Positions 49,934 through 57,447 of a DNA stretch of 60,610 nt are shown piece after piece (the first letter of the stretch is position 1; every line of letters begins with the position of its first letter). This DNA is from Gemmatimonadales bacterium (lineage in GTDB: Bacteria; Gemmatimonadota; Gemmatimonadetes; Gemmatimonadales; GWC2-71-9), in the NCBI GenBank assembly GCA_036500345.1, contig DASYCE010000030.1, forward strand, positions 1-60,610. The letters run 5' to 3'. The translations under genes and the position numbers were made by a program. Below the pieces are notes generated by a model that was not told the origin of the DNA, made no database searches, and saw only the letters and a list, made by a program, of their open reading frames with translations.

Positions 49934-52486
49934 CTACCGGTTCAGCCAGTACGACATCTTCACCAGGAAGGTGTTGTTTGCCCGCTCCGCGAACAGATTG
50001 CGGAGATCCCCCGTCAGTCCGTTTGGTCCCGCCGCCGGATCGAATCCGTTGCGTCCCTGCGTCCAGACGAAGAAGAGCGTCGACCCACGGCGGTATTCCC
50101 ACCGCACCACGAAATTCGAGTTGAACTGCCTCGAGTCAAAGCCACCGAGATGATTCGTGACGGCGGTATCCATGTACGGTTGATAGCGGGCGTCGTACTG
50201 CTCGGCCCCCGGATTCGCGAGCTCGCGGAGGTTGGTATATGCCCCCCGGCTCACAAATGGCTGCAAGTGCCATTGCACGGTGAGCGTCGGCGTGAAGGTG
50301 TAGCCCAGGTCGGCGGTGAGCGAGAGCGTGTGCTGCTCGAGGTGGGCGAAGGTGTAATGCTCTGCGCCAGCCACATCGAAGTTGCCATACCACTGGTTGT
50401 CGGTATGCGCATGCGACCAATCGGCACCGATGCTCGCCGACACGCGTGGTGACGCATTCAACGTGACGCTCGGCATGATGTCGACGTTCCCGTTGCGGCC
50501 GCTCGAACTCTCGAAACCATTGTAGGACAGGGTCGGAATGATCTTGTGGCGATCGTCGCCCGAGATTGTGGCCCATGGCGCGACATACGGATCCTGCCGT
50601 ACGGCCGGGCCGCCACGGGCGCAACGATCGCACCAGGTCTGTCCGAGCTGGCCCACCGTTCCACCGGCGTGAACCCACCAGTAGTTGGCGAGCTGCAGAT
50701 GCACGTTTGTGTTGGCGGCGCGCTCGGTCGGAACCCCAGCGGCGGTCCAGTACTGCCACCAGTTGAGGTTCCACCGCACCGACCGGGTGACCCGGTTCGG
50801 CGAGTTGAAGATGAACGCGAACCAGTTGTTCCAGCTCTGCTGGTCGGCCTGGCGGAGGTAACCGATGTCGTTGATCTCGAACCCAGGCGAGCGGCGCAGG
50901 TAGCTGGTTTCGAACATCGTCCGTCGCCCGCCGATCTTGCCGAAGTGCACCTCCTCGGCGTTGCCGTCGAGTGATGTTCGGGTTGAATCGAAGACGAGAG
51001 GGCCGTCAGGGCGCTGGTAGAGGTGGACGTCGTCCCGCTGCAGCGCCGCGATCGCCGTGGTACTTCCGCTCACCTGAGAAAAGTCGACTGACGCCGACAG
51101 CTCGAAGCGACGGTTGAGGAACTGGTGACGCGCCTCAAGCGCGCCCACATACGCCTCGGCCGAAAGCGCCGTGTCGGTCCAGCGATCGAGCGACCGATTG
51201 ACACCGGTGAACATCGCGCCGAACGAACTCGTCCCGCCATCGAGATCCTGGGTGGCGCGGAGGACGGCGTAGTTGGTCGCCGGTTCGATCGTGGCGTTGT
51301 TGATCCCCGATTCGCGCGCGGTTACCGCGTCGATTGCGCCGACCGATAGCCCGCCCTGCGACCGGCCGGTGACCTTCGCCGCGCCGAGAATCGTGGTAGC
51401 CTTCGGCGAGTCGTTGCCGCCGAACGAGCCGGCGAGTTGCGGGTCGCGCCCGATCCGCCGGGAATAGAAGAGTTCTTCGTTGCTGCAATTGACGGCACTG
51501 CAGTCGACGTTGAACTGAAAGAGGGAACTCCCCTCGACGAAGAACGGCCGCTTCTCCGGGAAGAAGGTCTCGAAGGCGCTGAGATTCAGCACCGCCGGAT
51601 CGGCTTCAACCTGTCCGAAATCCGGATTGATCGTGCCGGTGATCCGGACGTTGGGGGCGACCGCAAACTGCAGGTCGGCGCCGGCGGTGAGCTGCTGATT
51701 GCGACCATAGCCACGATCGCCGATTGTCTGCACATTGCGCGTGACGACGTACGGTGCAATTTCGGCGCGCTCTGGTTCCGCAAGATTCTCGAGGCCCACC
51801 AGCTCGCCGAGCTGCGAGGCAAGCCCGGGGCGCGACGCACGCCAGAGTGGCCACGCGGTCTGCTCGCCGGTCCGTTCGACGGTCCGCCAGATCGCGATCC
51901 CGAAGGTGTTATTCCCGTTGGGAACGTACCGCAGCTGCGCCAGCGGAATCCGATATTCTGCGGTCCAGCCGAGCGAATCGATCCGCGCCACGGCATCCCA
52001 GACACCATCCCACGCTGGATCCTCGTTGCCGTCCTGCGAAATCGCGTAGTCGACTTTCACGCCGGCGGGGTTGATGTCGAATTCATAGCCTGTCCGCCGG
52101 TCGTGGTACGAGTCGACCATCAACGCGATGACGTCCGACGGTGTCGACACGTCTCGCCGTGACATCAGGGCGACAATGCTGTCGGGATGAGCGTCATAGG
52201 CTCGAACGAAGACGTAGAGTGCATGCGCGTCGTAGGCGATCCGCGCTTCGGTGCGAGAGTGCGGATCGCCATTCTCCGTCGGTCGCACCACGCGAAAGCC
52301 GCTGATAACCGGCGCCGTCTTCCAGACTGCGTCGTCATCTCGCCCGTCGATCACCGGCGCTTCGGTGGCAAGGGTCGCCGTCACCGATGCAACGGTCGGA
52401 GGTGGTGCTACTTGTTGCGCGCGCGACGGCCCGATCGGGATCAGGAAACCGAGCGCGGTCGCCGCGGCGATACGAGAAATCGGCAT
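49934..52486 (-). CDS. DUF5916 outer-membrane protein with N-terminal CBM9-like domain
   Basis: 850 residues with a signal peptide (MPISRIAAATALGFLIPIGP, SRAQ). Residues about 45-230 form a CBM9-like sandwich (APVIDGRDDDAVWKTAPVISGF, ARIAYDAHALYVFVRAYD, EYRIPLAQLRY). The rest resembles DUF5916 beta-barrels (PDFGQVEADPAVLNLSAFETFFPEKRPFFVEGSSLF, FYSRRIGRDP, and paired strands to the end SYWLNR). Such proteins sit in the outer membrane and are thought to bind or take up large substrates. It starts 23 bases after the secreted HEAT protein. The frame is open to 52960, but the signal peptide sets the start at 52486. Confidence 0.9.
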   Translation of the reverse strand: MPISRIAAATALGFLIPIGPSRAQQVAPPPTVASVTATLATEAPVIDGRDDDAVWKTAPVISGFRVVRPTENGDPHSRTEARIAYDAHALYVFVRAYDAHPDSIVALMSRRDVSTPSDVIALMVDSYHDRRTGYEFDINPAGVKVDYAISQDGNEDPAWDGVWDAVARIDSLGWTAEYRIPLAQLRYVPNGNNTFGIAIWRTVERTGEQTAWPLWRASRPGLASQLGELVGLENLAEPERAEIAPYVVTRNVQTIGDRGYGRNQQLTAGADLQFAVAPNVRITGTINPDFGQVEADPAVLNLSAFETFFPEKRPFFVEGSSLFQFNVDCSAVNCSNEELFYSRRIGRDPQLAGSFGGNDSPKATTILGAAKVTGRSQGGLSVGAIDAVTARESGINNATIEPATNYAVLRATQDLDGGTSSFGAMFTGVNRSLDRWTDTALSAEAYVGALEARHQFLNRRFELSASVDFSQVSGSTTAIAALQRDDVHLYQRPDGPLVFDSTRTSLDGNAEEVHFGKIGGRRTMFETSYLRRSPGFEINDIGYLRQADQQSWNNWFAFIFNSPNRVTRSVRWNLNWWQYWTAAGVPTERAANTNVHLQLANYWWVHAGGTVGQLGQTWCDRCARGGPAVRQDPYVAPWATISGDDRHKIIPTLSYNGFESSSGRNGNVDIMPSVTLNASPRVSASIGADWSHAHTDNQWYGNFDVAGAEHYTFAHLEQHTLSLTADLGYTFTPTLTVQWHLQPFVSRGAYTNLRELANPGAEQYDARYQPYMDTAVTNHLGGFDSRQFNSNFVVRWEYRRGSTLFFVWTQGRNGFDPAAGPNGLTGDLRNLFAERANNTFLVKMSYWLNR

Positions 52487-52509: not shown

Positions 52510-53856
52510 TCAGTACGGGAACGGACGCGGGCGCGGCTGCGGCCACGGCCACGGATCGACATGATGACCACCGGCGAGCGCACGCGTCACCGCCGCCCGG
52601 ACGCTCGGATCCTTCGATTCGAGGAGCGTCGCGAGTTGCTCCGGGTCGCTCCCGCCATGAACCAAGGCGCGAATCTCCGCTTTCTCCGCCTGGGAATCGT
52701 GCTCCCGGGCGAGCGCCGCCTTGAGTGCGGGGATCGCCGCGGCGTTGTCGTCGAGCTGCGAGATCGCCCACGCCGCCGGCGTGCGCACCCTCGCGCTGCT
52801 GTCGCTCAGCGCATCGATCAGCGCCTTCGGTGGCGGCGACACGCCGAGCTCGCCGAGCGCCCACGCAGCGGTGGCCCGGGTGTGTGAGTCGTGATCGCTG
52901 GCAAGGGTCCGCGCGATGGCCGGCGCGGCGTTGTGATCGCCGATTTCGGCCGCGGCCCACACCGCCATCTCGCGAGTTCGCCCGTCGGCGTCACGCTCCA
53001 TCACGGTGAGGAGCGCCTGAGGTGCCACGTCGCCACCGATGTTGCCGACCGCCCAGACGCTCATCTCGCGAACGCCGGCGTCATGATCTTCGAACGCCGT
53101 GATGAGCGCGGGCAGACCAGCGTTGTCCCCAATATTGCCGAGAGCCCAGGCCGCCGAGCGACGCACCATCGGCGATGTGTCGGTGCGGAGGACCCGCGCG
53201 AGAATCGGCACGGCGCTGTTCGAATCGGAGTGACCGAGCGCTTCGACGGCGGCGAGGCGGACGATCTCGGCCGGGTCGTTCGCGATGCCGAGGAGCGCAG
53301 CGTAGCCGACGGCAGTGTCGGCGCGTCCGAGGGCCCACGCGGCGTTGGCGCGCACCCCGGCGGAATTGTCCTTGAGCGCACGAATCAGGTCGCCGGTGTT
53401 CCGCTCAGGGTCGATCAGGCCAAGACCAAATGCTGCCGCCTGGCGGACACCGGAGTCACTGGCGGACAGACGCTGCGCCAGCGGGCCGCGCAATGCGTCG
53501 CTGCCGTCGTATCCGAGGAACCGGATCGAGATGTCGCGGACGCATGGATCGGGGTTGTCGATCCCGGCGAGGATCAGTGCACGATCCGCGGCGGTGAGCG
53601 AGTCGACGCCGCGACGTGGTTCGGAGCGCTGGGTGACGCCGAGTGGCGTGACCGGCGCATCGCCGGAACGTCCCCAATCGCCGTTGCGCACCGACCGCGC
53701 GGCGAGGCTGCAGAGAACGCGCGAGGCACCGGCGGCGGCGTCGAGGATGCCGCGAACATCGACCGTCTCGGCTCCGGCTGCCGCGGCGGTCGGAGAGGTC
53801 GCGGCGGGGGGCGCCGCTGTGAAGGTGGTGGCGATGATCAGGACATGTCGCAGCAT
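52510..53856 (-). CDS. Secreted HEAT-repeat protein with Pro/Arg-rich tail
   Basis: 448 residues. A hydrophobic N-terminus (MLRHVLIIATTFTAAPPAAT) is a probable signal peptide. About nine HEAT repeats follow, with the recurrent helix pattern VRxxAAWALGxIGD, matching the repeats in the C-terminus of the M56 protein encoded upstream. The protein ends in a tail, DPWPWPQPRPRPFPY, very like the M56 protein tail. GGAG lies six bases before the ATG 53856; the frame is open to 53898. The start region is preceded by the palindrome TGTTGAAATTTCAACA. A role as soluble partner or competitor of the receptor is suggested by the shared repeats but unproven. Confidence 0.88.
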   Translation of the reverse strand: MLRHVLIIATTFTAAPPAATSPTAAAAGAETVDVRGILDAAAGASRVLCSLAARSVRNGDWGRSGDAPVTPLGVTQRSEPRRGVDSLTAADRALILAGIDNPDPCVRDISIRFLGYDGSDALRGPLAQRLSASDSGVRQAAAFGLGLIDPERNTGDLIRALKDNSAGVRANAAWALGRADTAVGYAALLGIANDPAEIVRLAAVEALGHSDSNSAVPILARVLRTDTSPMVRRSAAWALGNIGDNAGLPALITAFEDHDAGVREMSVWAVGNIGGDVAPQALLTVMERDADGRTREMAVWAAAEIGDHNAAPAIARTLASDHDSHTRATAAWALGELGVSPPPKALIDALSDSSARVRTPAAWAISQLDDNAAAIPALKAALAREHDSQAEKAEIRALVHGGSDPEQLATLLESKDPSVRAAVTRALAGGHHVDPWPWPQPRPRPFPY

Positions 53857-53869
53857 CGGGCGCTCCGTC

Positions 53870-53885
53870 TGTTGAAATTTCAACA
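53870..53885. promoter_or_regulatory. BlaI-box-like operator of the HEAT-repeat gene
   Basis: TGTTGAAATTTCAACA is a perfect 16-bp palindrome just upstream of the HEAT-protein start. It matches the two boxes in front of the blaI-like gene (pattern TGTTGA-N4-TCAACA), so the same repressor probably controls both promoters. Confidence 0.7.
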
Positions 53886-53945
53886 CTTCAGGGCACATGA
53901 TATGGGCGAAGCGGTTGCTCCGCGCCGTGATCGGTCAGTGAATGC

Positions 53946-55889
53946 TCAGGGAAACGGGATCGGACGAGGTCTGGGGCGCGGCATCGGATCGCTCGACGCG
54001 CCGCCGGCAATCGCGGATGCTGCGATCTGGCGGATCTCCGGATCGCTCGACCGCAGCCACGAAACCATATGCGATGGATCTTCGCCGGCGCGAATCAACG
54101 CCCGCATCTCCATCTTGAGCACGTCGGCCGACTTCTCGCCCTGCGCTGCGGCGCGAAGTGCCGGTAGCGCGCCCGCGTCTTCGACCTCGCCGAGAGCCCA
54201 GGCGGCTGTCTCACGCATGTCATCACTGGCATCACGGAGCGCCGCGACGAGCAGCGTTCCGGTGTGCGGCGCGCGGAGATATCCCAATGCCCAGGCACAG
54301 GTTGTCCGAACCCGCTCGCTCCTGTCGGCGGTGATCGCCGTGCGGCACGCCGAACTCGCGGCGGTATCACCGCTCTCGGCGAGCGCCCAGATCGACGTCT
54401 CCCGTACATCGTCATCGGTATCGCTGTGTGCTGCGCGCACCAGTGCTGCGCTCCCCATCGTGCCGTGACCACCCTGCAACGCCCAGGCCGCCATCGTTCG
54501 CACATCGGAATCGTGATCGCTGTTGAGGGCATTGCCCAACGCGGTCGCTGCCGCCGCGTCATCCGCGAAGTCCTGCAGTCCCCACGCGGCAACGCGGCGC
54601 ACCGACGCGGACGAATCCTCACGGAGCAGGCGAGCGAGCAACGCGACACGCTCGGAGCGCGGCAGTGAATCCGCGGCCTGCATCACCGGATTGATGGTGT
54701 GCTTTGACTCGGCCCCCGGCTTCAACTTCAGTGCAGGACGACTCGCCGATGGTTTCGGCGTGTCGAGCGCCAGGGCGTGATCGGCGATGGTGGCGACCGA
54801 ATCGATCGGCGAATGGAAGGCATTTGCGGCAGGGGACACCACGGGCGCGACCGGTGATGCCGCGCTCACCAGCACGGCGAGGACGGCGAGGCCGCCGACC
54901 AGCGACGCGGTGGCGGTACGCCCGGGCCCGACTCGGCGCTGATCGGGATCAAGAATGGCGAGCATGCGTCCCTCGAATTCCTTTCGATGTGCCATGGCAA
55001 GCGCGACCGACGGTGTGGCATGATCGCGTACGCAGGTGACGATTTCCAGCAGGTGCTCGGCGTACTCGCTCGGCCGTTCGCCGAACGCCAGCGCGAGATC
55101 ATCGCACGCACGCTCGCTCTCCGCACGGAGGCGGCGGGCGGCGCCCCAGACCATCGGGTGGAACCAGTAGAATGCGCAGGCGATCCGCCCGACCGTATGA
55201 CCGATCAGGTCACGACGACGGATGTGCGCCAGTTCGTGGATCAGCACCGCGGTGCGGCGTTCGACGCTCCACTCGCTGCTGTCGGCGGGGAGCACGACCA
55301 CGGGATGGAACATCCCGGCCGCGAACGGCATCCGGACGTCGTTGCTTCGAAGGATCCGCGGTGCATTCGGAATGTCGAGCCGGTCGGCGATATCGTAGAG
55401 CGGCCCCTGCCAGTCGGGATCGTCCAGCGGTTCGGCGCGCGCGATGATCCGCCGTACCGACCAGCTCCCAATCGCGAGCCAGAGGATGAGCAGTGCCACC
55501 ACGCCGCCCCAGAGTGCCACGATCACGCTGAAGCGATGCGCGTCGACAAAGTCGATCACGCGAGCGGTCAGCGGCGTCGACGAGGCGAAAGGCGCGTCGA
55601 CGGTCTGCCGTGATGCGGCAGGCGCCGGCAGGCCTGCATTCGGCGCTGTATTACCCGTTGGTATAGTCAGCGGTGCCGCGACCTGTGCCGCCGGAGTGGC
55701 GGGGAGCACGCGAAGCTCCAGCGGCCCCCACGCTGCGAGCGCCGGCAGCGACAACAGCGCAACGAGCGCCACCAGCCAGACGAGATGGCGCGATCCGGCC
55801 GACGCGCGCGACAGCAACCGCGCCAGGAAGAGCGCGATCGCGAGGAGCACCGTCGCCTTGATGAGGAGGAGGACGATCGACATGCTCAC
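53946..55889 (-). CDS. BlaR1/MecR1-like M56 metalloprotease with C-terminal HEAT repeats
   Basis: 647 residues. Three N-terminal TM helices (about 6-24, 34-52, 122-142) lead into the cytoplasmic M56 protease: HELAH with zinc ligands His218, His222 and catalytic Glu219, and the third-ligand segment RAESERACDD. A fourth TM lies at about 327-345. In BlaR1 the outer segment would be a penicillin-binding sensor; here residues 405-630 are about six HEAT repeats (VRRVAAWGL, VRETAAWALGEVED) and a Pro/Arg tail (DPMPRPRPRPIPFP). Signal binding would therefore be by protein-protein contact. The start overlaps the blaI stop (ATGA). Confidence 0.9.
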   Translation of the reverse strand: MSMSIVLLLIKATVLLAIALFLARLLSRASAGSRHLVWLVALVALLSLPALAAWGPLELRVLPATPAAQVAAPLTIPTGNTAPNAGLPAPAASRQTVDAPFASSTPLTARVIDFVDAHRFSVIVALWGGVVALLILWLAIGSWSVRRIIARAEPLDDPDWQGPLYDIADRLDIPNAPRILRSNDVRMPFAAGMFHPVVVLPADSSEWSVERRTAVLIHELAHIRRRDLIGHTVGRIACAFYWFHPMVWGAARRLRAESERACDDLALAFGERPSEYAEHLLEIVTCVRDHATPSVALAMAHRKEFEGRMLAILDPDQRRVGPGRTATASLVGGLAVLAVLVSAASPVAPVVSPAANAFHSPIDSVATIADHALALDTPKPSASRPALKLKPGAESKHTINPVMQAADSLPRSERVALLARLLREDSSASVRRVAAWGLQDFADDAAAATALGNALNSDHDSDVRTMAAWALQGGHGTMGSAALVRAAHSDTDDDVRETSIWALAESGDTAASSACRTAITADRSERVRTTCAWALGYLRAPHTGTLLVAALRDASDDMRETAAWALGEVEDAGALPALRAAAQGEKSADVLKMEMRALIRAGEDPSHMVSWLRSSDPEIRQIAASAIAGGASSDPMPRPRPRPIPFP

Positions 55890-56281
55890 CGTCCCTTCTG
55901 CCGGGCGGTGCGGATCGTGGCACGGAGCTTCGATACATCGGCGTCGGAGAGATCTGCGTCGGCAATGCGGAGCAGCGCCGTGACCGCCTGTTCGGCCGAC
56001 CCCGCGAAATAGGTCCGGACAACCTGCTCGAGCACCTCATCGCCGGCGCGGTTGACCGGGGTCGCGGGACGGTAGATGTAGCGGGCGCCTTCGGCCTTGA
56101 AGGTGATCAGCCGCTTGGTGCCGAGGATGCGGAGAATCGATCGGACCGCGGAATAGGTCGGCGGGTCCGGGAGGTCATCGAGGATCTCGGAGACGGTCGC
56201 TTCGCCGCGGCGATAGAGGATCTCCATCACCTGGCGCTCGCGTCGCGAGAGGTCGTCGGTCGTCGCGGGTTTGGCCATCAT
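55886..56281 (-). CDS. BlaI/MecI-family repressor
   Basis: 131 residues from ATG 56281 (56278 and 56305 are in-frame alternatives; GGAG lies against the 56281 and 56278 ATGs). Winged-helix pattern: LSRRERQVMEILYRRGEATVSEIL, SAVRSILRILGTKRLITFKAEG. The C-terminal dimerisation helices follow (DEVLEQVVRTYFAGSAEQAVTALL). BlaI-type repressors are cleaved by their partner M56 protease to derepress target genes. It is translationally coupled to the M56-HEAT gene. Two TGTTGA-N4-TCARCA boxes overlap its promoter. Confidence 0.92.
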   Translation of the reverse strand: MMAKPATTDDLSRRERQVMEILYRRGEATVSEILDDLPDPPTYSAVRSILRILGTKRLITFKAEGARYIYRPATPVNRAGDEVLEQVVRTYFAGSAEQAVTALLRIADADLSDADVSKLRATIRTARQKGR

Positions 56282-56324: not shown

Positions 56325-56357
56325 CGCTGAAAAATCAACAGTGCTGATAATTCAACA
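56325..56357. promoter_or_regulatory. Tandem BlaI-box-like operators upstream of blaI
   Basis: Two 16-bp boxes at 17-bp period: CGCTGAAAAATCAACA (56325-56340) and TGCTGATAATTCAACA (56342-56357). Each fits TGYTGA-N4-TCAACA, and the HEAT-gene palindrome at 53870-53885 is the perfect form. The second box overlaps the -10 box of the minus-strand promoter. Confidence 0.7.
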
Positions 56358-56502: not shown

Positions 56503-57447
56503 GTGACCATTTGTCGGCTGCCAACCCGGTTGTTGCTCGCCGTCAGCCTGCTTCCCGGCGTGACCGGTCTTGCAGCACAACAGCCCGTTTCCCGCGCGGT
56601 AGCGTATCAGCCTGACTCGGCACCGCCGCGGTCGATCACGCTGTCGGGAACGGTCGAAGTCCCGCTCCTCGGCGCGAGTGCCCGCGACCGACGGCCGATG
56701 GTGGAGGTGATGATCGACGGGAAGGGGCCGTATCGCTTTGCGATCGAAACTGGCGCGCGCGAAATCGACCTGTCGAAAGCGCTGGTCGATTCCCTTCATC
56801 TCAAACGGATCGGCGGCCCCGACGAATCTCCGGAGTTTCACCTCGACTCACTCAACGTCGGTGCGGTGACGTTCGCCGATTTCCCCGTCGGCGAACTGCC
56901 ACCAGGGATCGGCGGCTTCGATGGCGTCCTGGGCCTGCCACTCTACCAGAATCTTCTGCTCACCATCGACTATCCGGCGGGGCATGTACGCTTTGCAAAG
57001 GGCGAGTTGCCCCGCGCCGACGGGCAGTCGATCCTGGCGCTGACTCGCGTCGGGGCGTTCTGGGGAATTCCGGTGCGCATCGCGGGGAAGGCGTTCGATG
57101 CAGTACTCGACACGCAGAACAGTGGAGCGATCAACATTCCGCCATTTCTGGGCGACTCGCTGCCATTCGACGGCGCGCTGCAAACGATCGGGCGGGCGCG
57201 CGGCGCGTTCGGTACTGTCGATGTGAAGGGCGGGTCGCTCGCAGGCGACGTCACGATCGGGAGATACACCGTGCCGAAGCCGTTTCTCGCCATCGTCCCG
57301 CTGCCGCCCGAGTATCCCAATCATCCGAATATCGGGTCGCAACTGCTCGACAGCTTCGTGGTGACGCTCGATCAGCGCAACGGGCGGTTGCAGCTGTCGC
57401 ACGAGGGAGGATCGGTGATCACGCTCCCTGCGCGGCGCGGCAGTTAG
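56503..57447 (+). CDS. Exported retropepsin-like aspartyl protease family protein
   Basis: 314 residues with a signal peptide (about 1-25, LAAQ). Two copies of a retropepsin-like fold: the first has RFAIETGAREID, where the catalytic Asp of the usual DTGA is Glu82; the second has AVLDTQNSGAINI with Asp203. The conserved strand GFDGVLGLPLYQN and the closing GSQLLDSFVVTLDQRNGRLQL fit this family. The D-to-E change makes catalysis uncertain. It starts at a GTG with GGAG six bases before. Its stop overlaps the stop of the convergent TPR gene. Confidence 0.8.
   Translation: MTICRLPTRLLLAVSLLPGVTGLAAQQPVSRAVAYQPDSAPPRSITLSGTVEVPLLGASARDRRPMVEVMIDGKGPYRFAIETGAREIDLSKALVDSLHLKRIGGPDESPEFHLDSLNVGAVTFADFPVGELPPGIGGFDGVLGLPLYQNLLLTIDYPAGHVRFAKGELPRADGQSILALTRVGAFWGIPVRIAGKAFDAVLDTQNSGAINIPPFLGDSLPFDGALQTIGRARGAFGTVDVKGGSLAGDVTIGRYTVPKPFLAIVPLPPEYPNHPNIGSQLLDSFVVTLDQRNGRLQLSHEGGSVITLPARRGS

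Follow-up and report, generated by a model that had tools for sequence, protein, structure and literature searches.

Genes and features of the locus

The window, by which we mean the whole stretch of DNA analyzed (60,610 nucleotides from a Gemmatimonadales bacterium), carries on its minus strand four genes in the order blaI, M56-HEAT receptor, soluble HEAT gene, and DUF5916 gene (Table 1). The genome to which it belongs (3.3 Mb, 96% complete) encodes just one member each of the BlaI and M56 families. The blaI and receptor genes overlap as GTGA. The blaI product scores 79.7 bits against a Penicillinase_R family cut-off of 22.6, and its profile matches the MecI/BlaI structures 1okr and 1sd4; the receptor matches Peptidase_M56 (8.3e-33, residues 7-311) and HEAT_2 (5.2e-27). 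The BlaI/BlaR1-type pair proposed in an earlier, sequence-only reading of this DNA is therefore borne out, at the correct coordinates. For the soluble HEAT gene, a start at 53856 is better than the one at 53898 chosen by the ORF caller. The DUF5916 gene follows 23 nt after it, and the two are probably co-transcribed.

Table 1. Features of the HEAT receptor locus in the window
Feature	Positions	Strand	Evidence
Exported CBM9/DUF5916 protein	49934..52486	-	Pfam DUF5916 1.2e-57, CBM9_1 7.9e-08
Exported soluble HEAT protein, 448 aa, about 11 repeats	52510..53856	-	Pfam HEAT_2 2.7e-78, AlphaFold, alignment
C-terminal tail of soluble HEAT protein, DPWPWPQPRPRPFPY	52513..52557	-	Ortholog alignment
Perfect 16-bp palindrome, BlaI-type operator TGTTGAAATTTCAACA, 13 nt before soluble HEAT start	53870..53885	.	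Motif scan
Receptor, 4-TM M56 zinc protease with predicted extracytoplasmic HEAT domain and Pro/Arg tail, 647 aa	53946..55889	-	Pfam, AlphaFold
C-terminal tail of receptor, DPMPRPRPRPIPFP	53949..53990	-	Family form GPWPWPWPxPRPFP in relatives
Receptor HEAT domain, residues 401-627, about 7 repeats, in the position of the penicillin sensor	54009..54689	-	AlphaFold helices, alphaRep match, positive-inside rule
M56 zinc/catalytic residues, HELAH (218-222) to RAESER (255-260)	55110..55238	-	Invariance in homologs
BlaI-type repressor, 131 aa, winged helix, Penicillinase_R	55886..56281	-	Pfam PF03965 2.7e-22
Second tandem operator upstream of blaI, TGTTGATTTTTCAGCG, one mismatch	56325..56340	.	Tandem pair also in many relatives
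Operator upstream of blaI, TGTTGAATTATCAGCA	56342..56357	.	Conserved before blaI in all relatives with sequence

A divergent gene for an exported, retropepsin-like aspartyl protease (56503-57447) borders the same intergenic region as the blaI operators. It was rejected as a regulon member, as it is without a homolog in the relatives' loci. Assignment of the locus to a defense system was likewise rejected, the PADLOC matches being to generic HEAT only.

The receptor and its HEAT domain

In the receptor, residues H218, E219, H222, E257, E259, and D263 are invariant among 33 homologs, so that the zinc and catalytic residues are indeed intact, as had been read from the sequence. The M56 part matches the cryo-EM structures of Staphylococcus aureus BlaR1 (8exs, Z 18.7 over 254 residues; 8ext, Z 18.5, rmsd 2.9), with the fold alignment spanning receptor residues 1-306, and a profile search with the receptor also recovers BlaR1. 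In that alignment F284 of BlaR1 stands opposite a near-invariant M299; Phe284 is the P1' residue of the BlaR1 autocleavage loop (PMC9834060). The equivalent of the BlaI cleavage site is hydrophobic, in a stretch where the alignment is ambiguous. Covariation between the BlaI cleavage site and the receptor autocleavage loop (Met/Met) hinges on gap placement and is not claimed.

In the AlphaFold2 model (33-sequence alignment, pLDDT 83), a disordered linker (residues 355-400) between TM4 and the HEAT solenoid is followed by 15 helices, which correspond to about seven HEAT repeats with pLDDT mostly 93-98. This C-terminal part matches alphaRep HEAT proteins with a Z of about 25. Thus, of the claim that about six HEAT repeats had taken the place of the beta-lactam sensor, the replacement stands and the count is corrected to about seven. 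The class-D beta-lactamase-like, penicillin-binding C-terminal sensor is absent, residues 401-627 being HEAT by both Pfam and structure, which also agrees with the earlier view that the sensor is of a non-penicillin type. The best NCBIfam match, blaR1_generic, reaches 85.7 bits against a cut-off of 400 and covers the M56 part only, and the blaR1 and mecR1 models fall far below their cut-offs. Since the defining sensor was tested for and is absent, the system does not belong to the BlaR1/MecR1 beta-lactam receptors; the repressor and the protease are members of the respective families. Within its own family, the window receptor is divergent in both its tail and its HEAT domain, the latter being fast-evolving (end branch 1.15).

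Among the loci collected, two other M56 receptors have different C-terminal extracytoplasmic regions, a Glu/Arg-rich coiled tail and another repeat type, respectively (L034, 4851-7313; L035, 2353-4569), showing that the sensor is freely exchanged among M56 receptors.

The receptor has four hydrophobic segments, as many TM helices as had been claimed, with net charges before/after each of 0/+3, +3/0, 0/+2, and +2/-1 in the window protein. Because the charge is net positive after TM1 and TM3, the positive-inside rule predicts that the protease lies inside and the HEAT domain outside the cytoplasm, and the same charge pattern is found in the large majority of the 33 homologs. A cytoplasmic HEAT segment, the outcome that the sequence-only reading had named as fatal to its own proposal, was thus looked for, and the predicted location is outside.

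The soluble paralog, its pairing with the receptor, and the operators

The soluble HEAT protein (AlphaFold pLDDT 86) has a signal-peptide-like N-terminus and two cysteines, C49 and C105, that are invariant in an alignment with 21 orthologs, a combination in keeping with export. Both this protein and the receptor domain score above the HEAT_2 family cut-off and adopt an alpha-solenoid fold. The receptor HEAT and soluble HEAT domains form sister paralog groups, with the exceptions of the divergent f3/f5 rows and of the window receptor. Distances within the two groups correlate (r 0.81), as common descent of one locus alone would make them do. There is no sign of concerted evolution between the two domains, the identity being 43.5% within the same genome and 42.6% across genomes.

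To follow the pairing, the receptor was searched in 394 genomes of the class, and receptor and soluble protein were searched separately in 288 genomes of the order. In the latter set, a close receptor occurs in 39 genomes, the soluble HEAT protein in 40, and both in 35, with two further, distant receptors in G215 and G249. The unpaired genomes mostly reflect contig ends (G154, G240, G486, G304, G108, G477, and G488); a leftover, G379, has a divergent soluble protein. The one clean exception is G146, which has the soluble gene only: at L143 (6350-7678) the gene has the conserved tail, and no adjoining BlaI, M56 receptor, or operator was found, making it a possible orphan. Wherever downstream sequence is available (34/34 receptor loci), the soluble gene is next to the receptor on the same strand, so the search for M56-HEAT fusions suggested earlier found the adjacent HEAT gene each time; blaI is present in all receptor loci with upstream sequence. 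The second outcome that the sequence-only reading had named as fatal, a pairing missing from relatives, was thus also looked for, and the pairing is conserved. Of the deeper class members examined, most also have BlaI, M56-HEAT, and next to them a HEAT gene of smaller size. The system is patchy, being present in 1/10 genomes of its own genus, and therefore the genes are gained or lost together. A scan for fusions outside Gemmatimonadota gave 12 loci, none of them M56-HEAT as read, with exact peptide seeds that missed most known cases.

Both proteins end in an alternating Pro tail (PWPWPxPRPRPFP-like) in nearly all close relatives. In the soluble protein, Pro 435, 437, 439, 441, 443, 445, and 447 and R444 are invariant across 22 orthologs. 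The sequence-only reading had pointed to a common tail on the two proteins: the likeness is beyond chance, while the window receptor's own version departs from the family form. The motif PWPxPRPxP occurs once in the window genome, at the soluble HEAT gene, and in relatives mainly in these two genes, other matches being about as rare as in the control.

A further common feature lies within the repeats. In most repeats of both proteins, the residue preceding A-L-G is Trp (116 matches against 8 for the next residue in the soluble family; 69 against 6 in close receptors). Alignment to alphaRep places this Trp at position 26, which in alphaRep is among the variable positions of the concave face, where binding occurs (PMC3754942). 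In the soluble family, conservation is higher at concave than at convex positions (1.34 vs 2.12 bits). In the receptor, the four repeats that were scored show no variation at position 26, and the groove overall is not clearly better conserved (1.61 vs 1.74 bits). As predicted from these alignments, the HEAT grooves of both proteins carry a tryptophan ladder.

The genes are also connected by palindromes of consensus TGYTGA-N4-TCARCA. At up to three mismatches, two operator sites are found in the window against 0.01 expected. There are 38 exact matches to TGYTGAWWWWTCARCA, spread over 24 genomes, and 26 of the matches are at the cluster; the reversed control gives 0. At up to one mismatch, all loci with sequence there have a site before blaI, and 31/38 systems have one before the soluble HEAT gene; six of the seven systems that lack the latter site are in genus g39, so separate control of the soluble gene is not universal. 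The window genome has only three sites at this threshold, all at the HEAT locus, and at two mismatches further matches are close to the control count. Palindromic putative operators upstream of both its own operon and a target gene, a trait of BlaI/MecI/CopY-type repressors, are therefore present, and from their position and from the repressor's family we infer that BlaI binds them. Altogether, adjacency, operator, tail, and common ancestry support the view that the soluble HEAT gene belongs to the receptor system.

In distant class members (L074-L088), the gene order is the same and the blaI operators differ in sequence (TGCTAGAATTCCAGCA, TGCTACTGTAGTAGCA); the specificity of the operator shifts from clade to clade. 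Genus g35 has a further BlaI-M56 pair immediately upstream of the HEAT system (L060, 3815-6693; also L145); this pair lacks HEAT and has a palindrome of its own, TGTCAATGCATTGACA.

The gene downstream of the soluble HEAT gene is exported and variable. It is CBM9/DUF5916 in six systems (the window plus L052, L065, L066, L068, and L072). In genus g35 its place is taken by a gene for an S41-peptidase-like lipoprotein, and in genus g39 by one for a small exported TPR protein that directly adjoins the stop of the soluble gene; G457 has an amidohydrolase-TPR-S41 protein there. Given 2-9 DUF5916 matches per genome, finding it in this position six times, across at least four lineages, is more than chance would give. 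The open-access papers that we searched do not mention DUF5916. Off-cluster operators in G288, G330, and G379 precede DUF5916 genes (DUF5916 stands behind such operators at L086, L124, and L125), and other BlaI paralogs could own them. Exact BlaI-type operators also lie off cluster near position 4000 in L118, L119, L120, L121, and L123 and near 2570 in L122, beside genes for a serine beta-lactamase-like hydrolase, two ADOP-type ABC permeases, an alpha/beta hydrolase, and a peptidase-like protein. The L118-L123 sites possibly mark a wider regulon of exported proteins.

Proposed circuit, alternatives, and known systems

We propose, with a probability of roughly 0.6, that the locus encodes an autoregulated, BlaI/BlaR1-type regulated-proteolysis switch with an extracytoplasmic HEAT ligand-binding domain, whose soluble paralog most likely binds the same ligand; sensor and output may also recognize one another's tails. 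At rest, BlaI dimers on the TGYTGA-N4-TCARCA operators would keep both transcription units repressed, blaI-receptor on the one hand and the soluble HEAT gene plus exported cargo on the other. Binding or release of a ligand by the HEAT domain would then lead the cytoplasmic M56 domain to cleave BlaI, and the cell would raise its production of receptor, soluble HEAT protein, and cargo (DUF5916, a predicted envelope protein, in this case). The soluble protein would most likely bind the sensor's envelope ligand and then remove or handle it, since it is a paralog of the sensor with the same Trp-lined groove and Pro-rich tail. Repression by BlaI and its stimulus-driven cleavage by the M56 domain are presumed by analogy with the BlaI/BlaR1 family, and the direction of the signal and the sign of the regulation would be as just described. 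We likewise infer that the main output is the soluble HEAT protein and that it has its ligand in common with the sensor; such sharing has a precedent, because the BlaR1 sensor resembles class-D beta-lactamases, so that sensor and effector share a ligand (PMC7593790). The data equally allow two parallel binders of one ligand and a soluble protein that acts as the receptor's partner; by analogy, the BlaR1/class-D beta-lactamase precedent favors parallel binding, with the soluble protein as output.

In the partner alternative, which we regard as somewhat unlikely, the receptor's ligand would be the soluble HEAT protein itself, with the Pro/Trp/Arg tail of one of them lying in the other's Trp-lined groove. 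Free soluble protein would hold the receptor off (or switch it on), and its titration by envelope damage would alter the signal, much as RseB acts on RseA and CpxP on CpxA. Both proteins have both groove and tail, the tail is nearly specific to these two genes, the soluble gene is under the same operator and would close a feedback loop, and armadillo proteins with fused alternating-dipeptide peptides are among the structural matches. However, the tail has a pLDDT of only about 63-73, the receptor's own tail could fill its own groove, and a Trp-lined groove does not identify a ligand. More doubtful still is a self-recognizing receptor system, in which both proteins would have a polyproline tail fitting the Trp-lined HEAT groove, and free soluble HEAT protein would be measured by tail-groove exchange and adjusted through BlaI proteolysis, with exported cargo genes as plug-ins.

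The two HEAT genes might also be no more than neighbors, an envelope HEAT gene having been duplicated into the receptor without a sensing role or common ligand, and BlaI simply regulating an envelope operon. Some relatives do have a broader regulon, as off-cluster operators there precede genes for further exported products (DUF5916, ADOP-type permeases, hydrolases); yet the adjacency in every receptor locus of the order with downstream sequence, and in most distant class members, together with the retention of groove and tail in both paralogs, makes this reading improbable. Most well-known HEAT proteins are cytoplasmic, which is what speaks for a HEAT segment serving as a cytoplasmic scaffold, for example for BlaI or the protease. 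We consider this very improbable in view of the four segments and their charge pattern, a segment order that is the same as in BlaR1, whose sensor is outside, and a paralog with a signal-peptide-like start and two invariant cysteines. Still less credence, indeed next to none, goes to an ordinary beta-lactam sensor of the BlaR1/MecR1 family: M56 and BlaI homology and the identity of the best NCBIfam match point that way, but that match is far below its cut-off and confined to the M56 part, a HEAT solenoid without a penicillin-binding fold fills the sensor position, only HEAT and DUF5916 genes are operator-linked here, and the M56 proteins that do have a penicillin-sensor-like C-terminus (L038, L040, L042) look different. 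The switch that we favor therefore looks like an envelope-sensing circuit separate from antibiotics.

M56/BlaI pairs are widespread, and to our knowledge, the characterized receptors among them sense beta-lactams. Among the open-access papers that we searched, none describes an M56-HEAT/BlaI system of this kind. The palindromic operators, the likely DUF5916 operon, and the tryptophan-lined groove are newly recognized here. Sensor class, operator, and a directly controlled output are all defined by sequence, given the presumed binding of BlaI, and as BlaI and M56 each occur once in this genome, what non-penicillin BlaR1 receptors sense becomes testable. If, as predicted, the main product under the receptor's control is a free copy of its sensor, the feedback design is both unusual and simple.

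Like BlaR1/BlaI and MecR1/MecI of Staphylococcus aureus and Bacillus licheniformis, the system has a repressor gene beside that of a four-TM M56 gluzincin receptor with an HExxH...E zinc site, a sensor after the last TM, and a repressor that controls (here by prediction) its own operon and an output gene. It differs in having a HEAT solenoid as sensor instead of a penicillin-binding domain, in its operator, in the near-invariant Met299 aligned with BlaR1 Phe284, and in a predicted output that consists of the sensor's own soluble paralog and an exported protein. The fold, the 31-32 residue repeat, and about 30-35% identity to alphaRep are those of HEAT_2/PBS-lyase-type proteins and designed alphaRep proteins; unlike them, the proteins here have Trp at concave position 26 in most repeats and a Pro-rich tail, and are predicted to be exported. 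RseA/RseB and CpxA/CpxP also combine a membrane signal transducer with a soluble periplasmic protein in a feedback circuit. The layout is the same and the proteins are unrelated; in the present system, receptor sensor and soluble protein are homologs.
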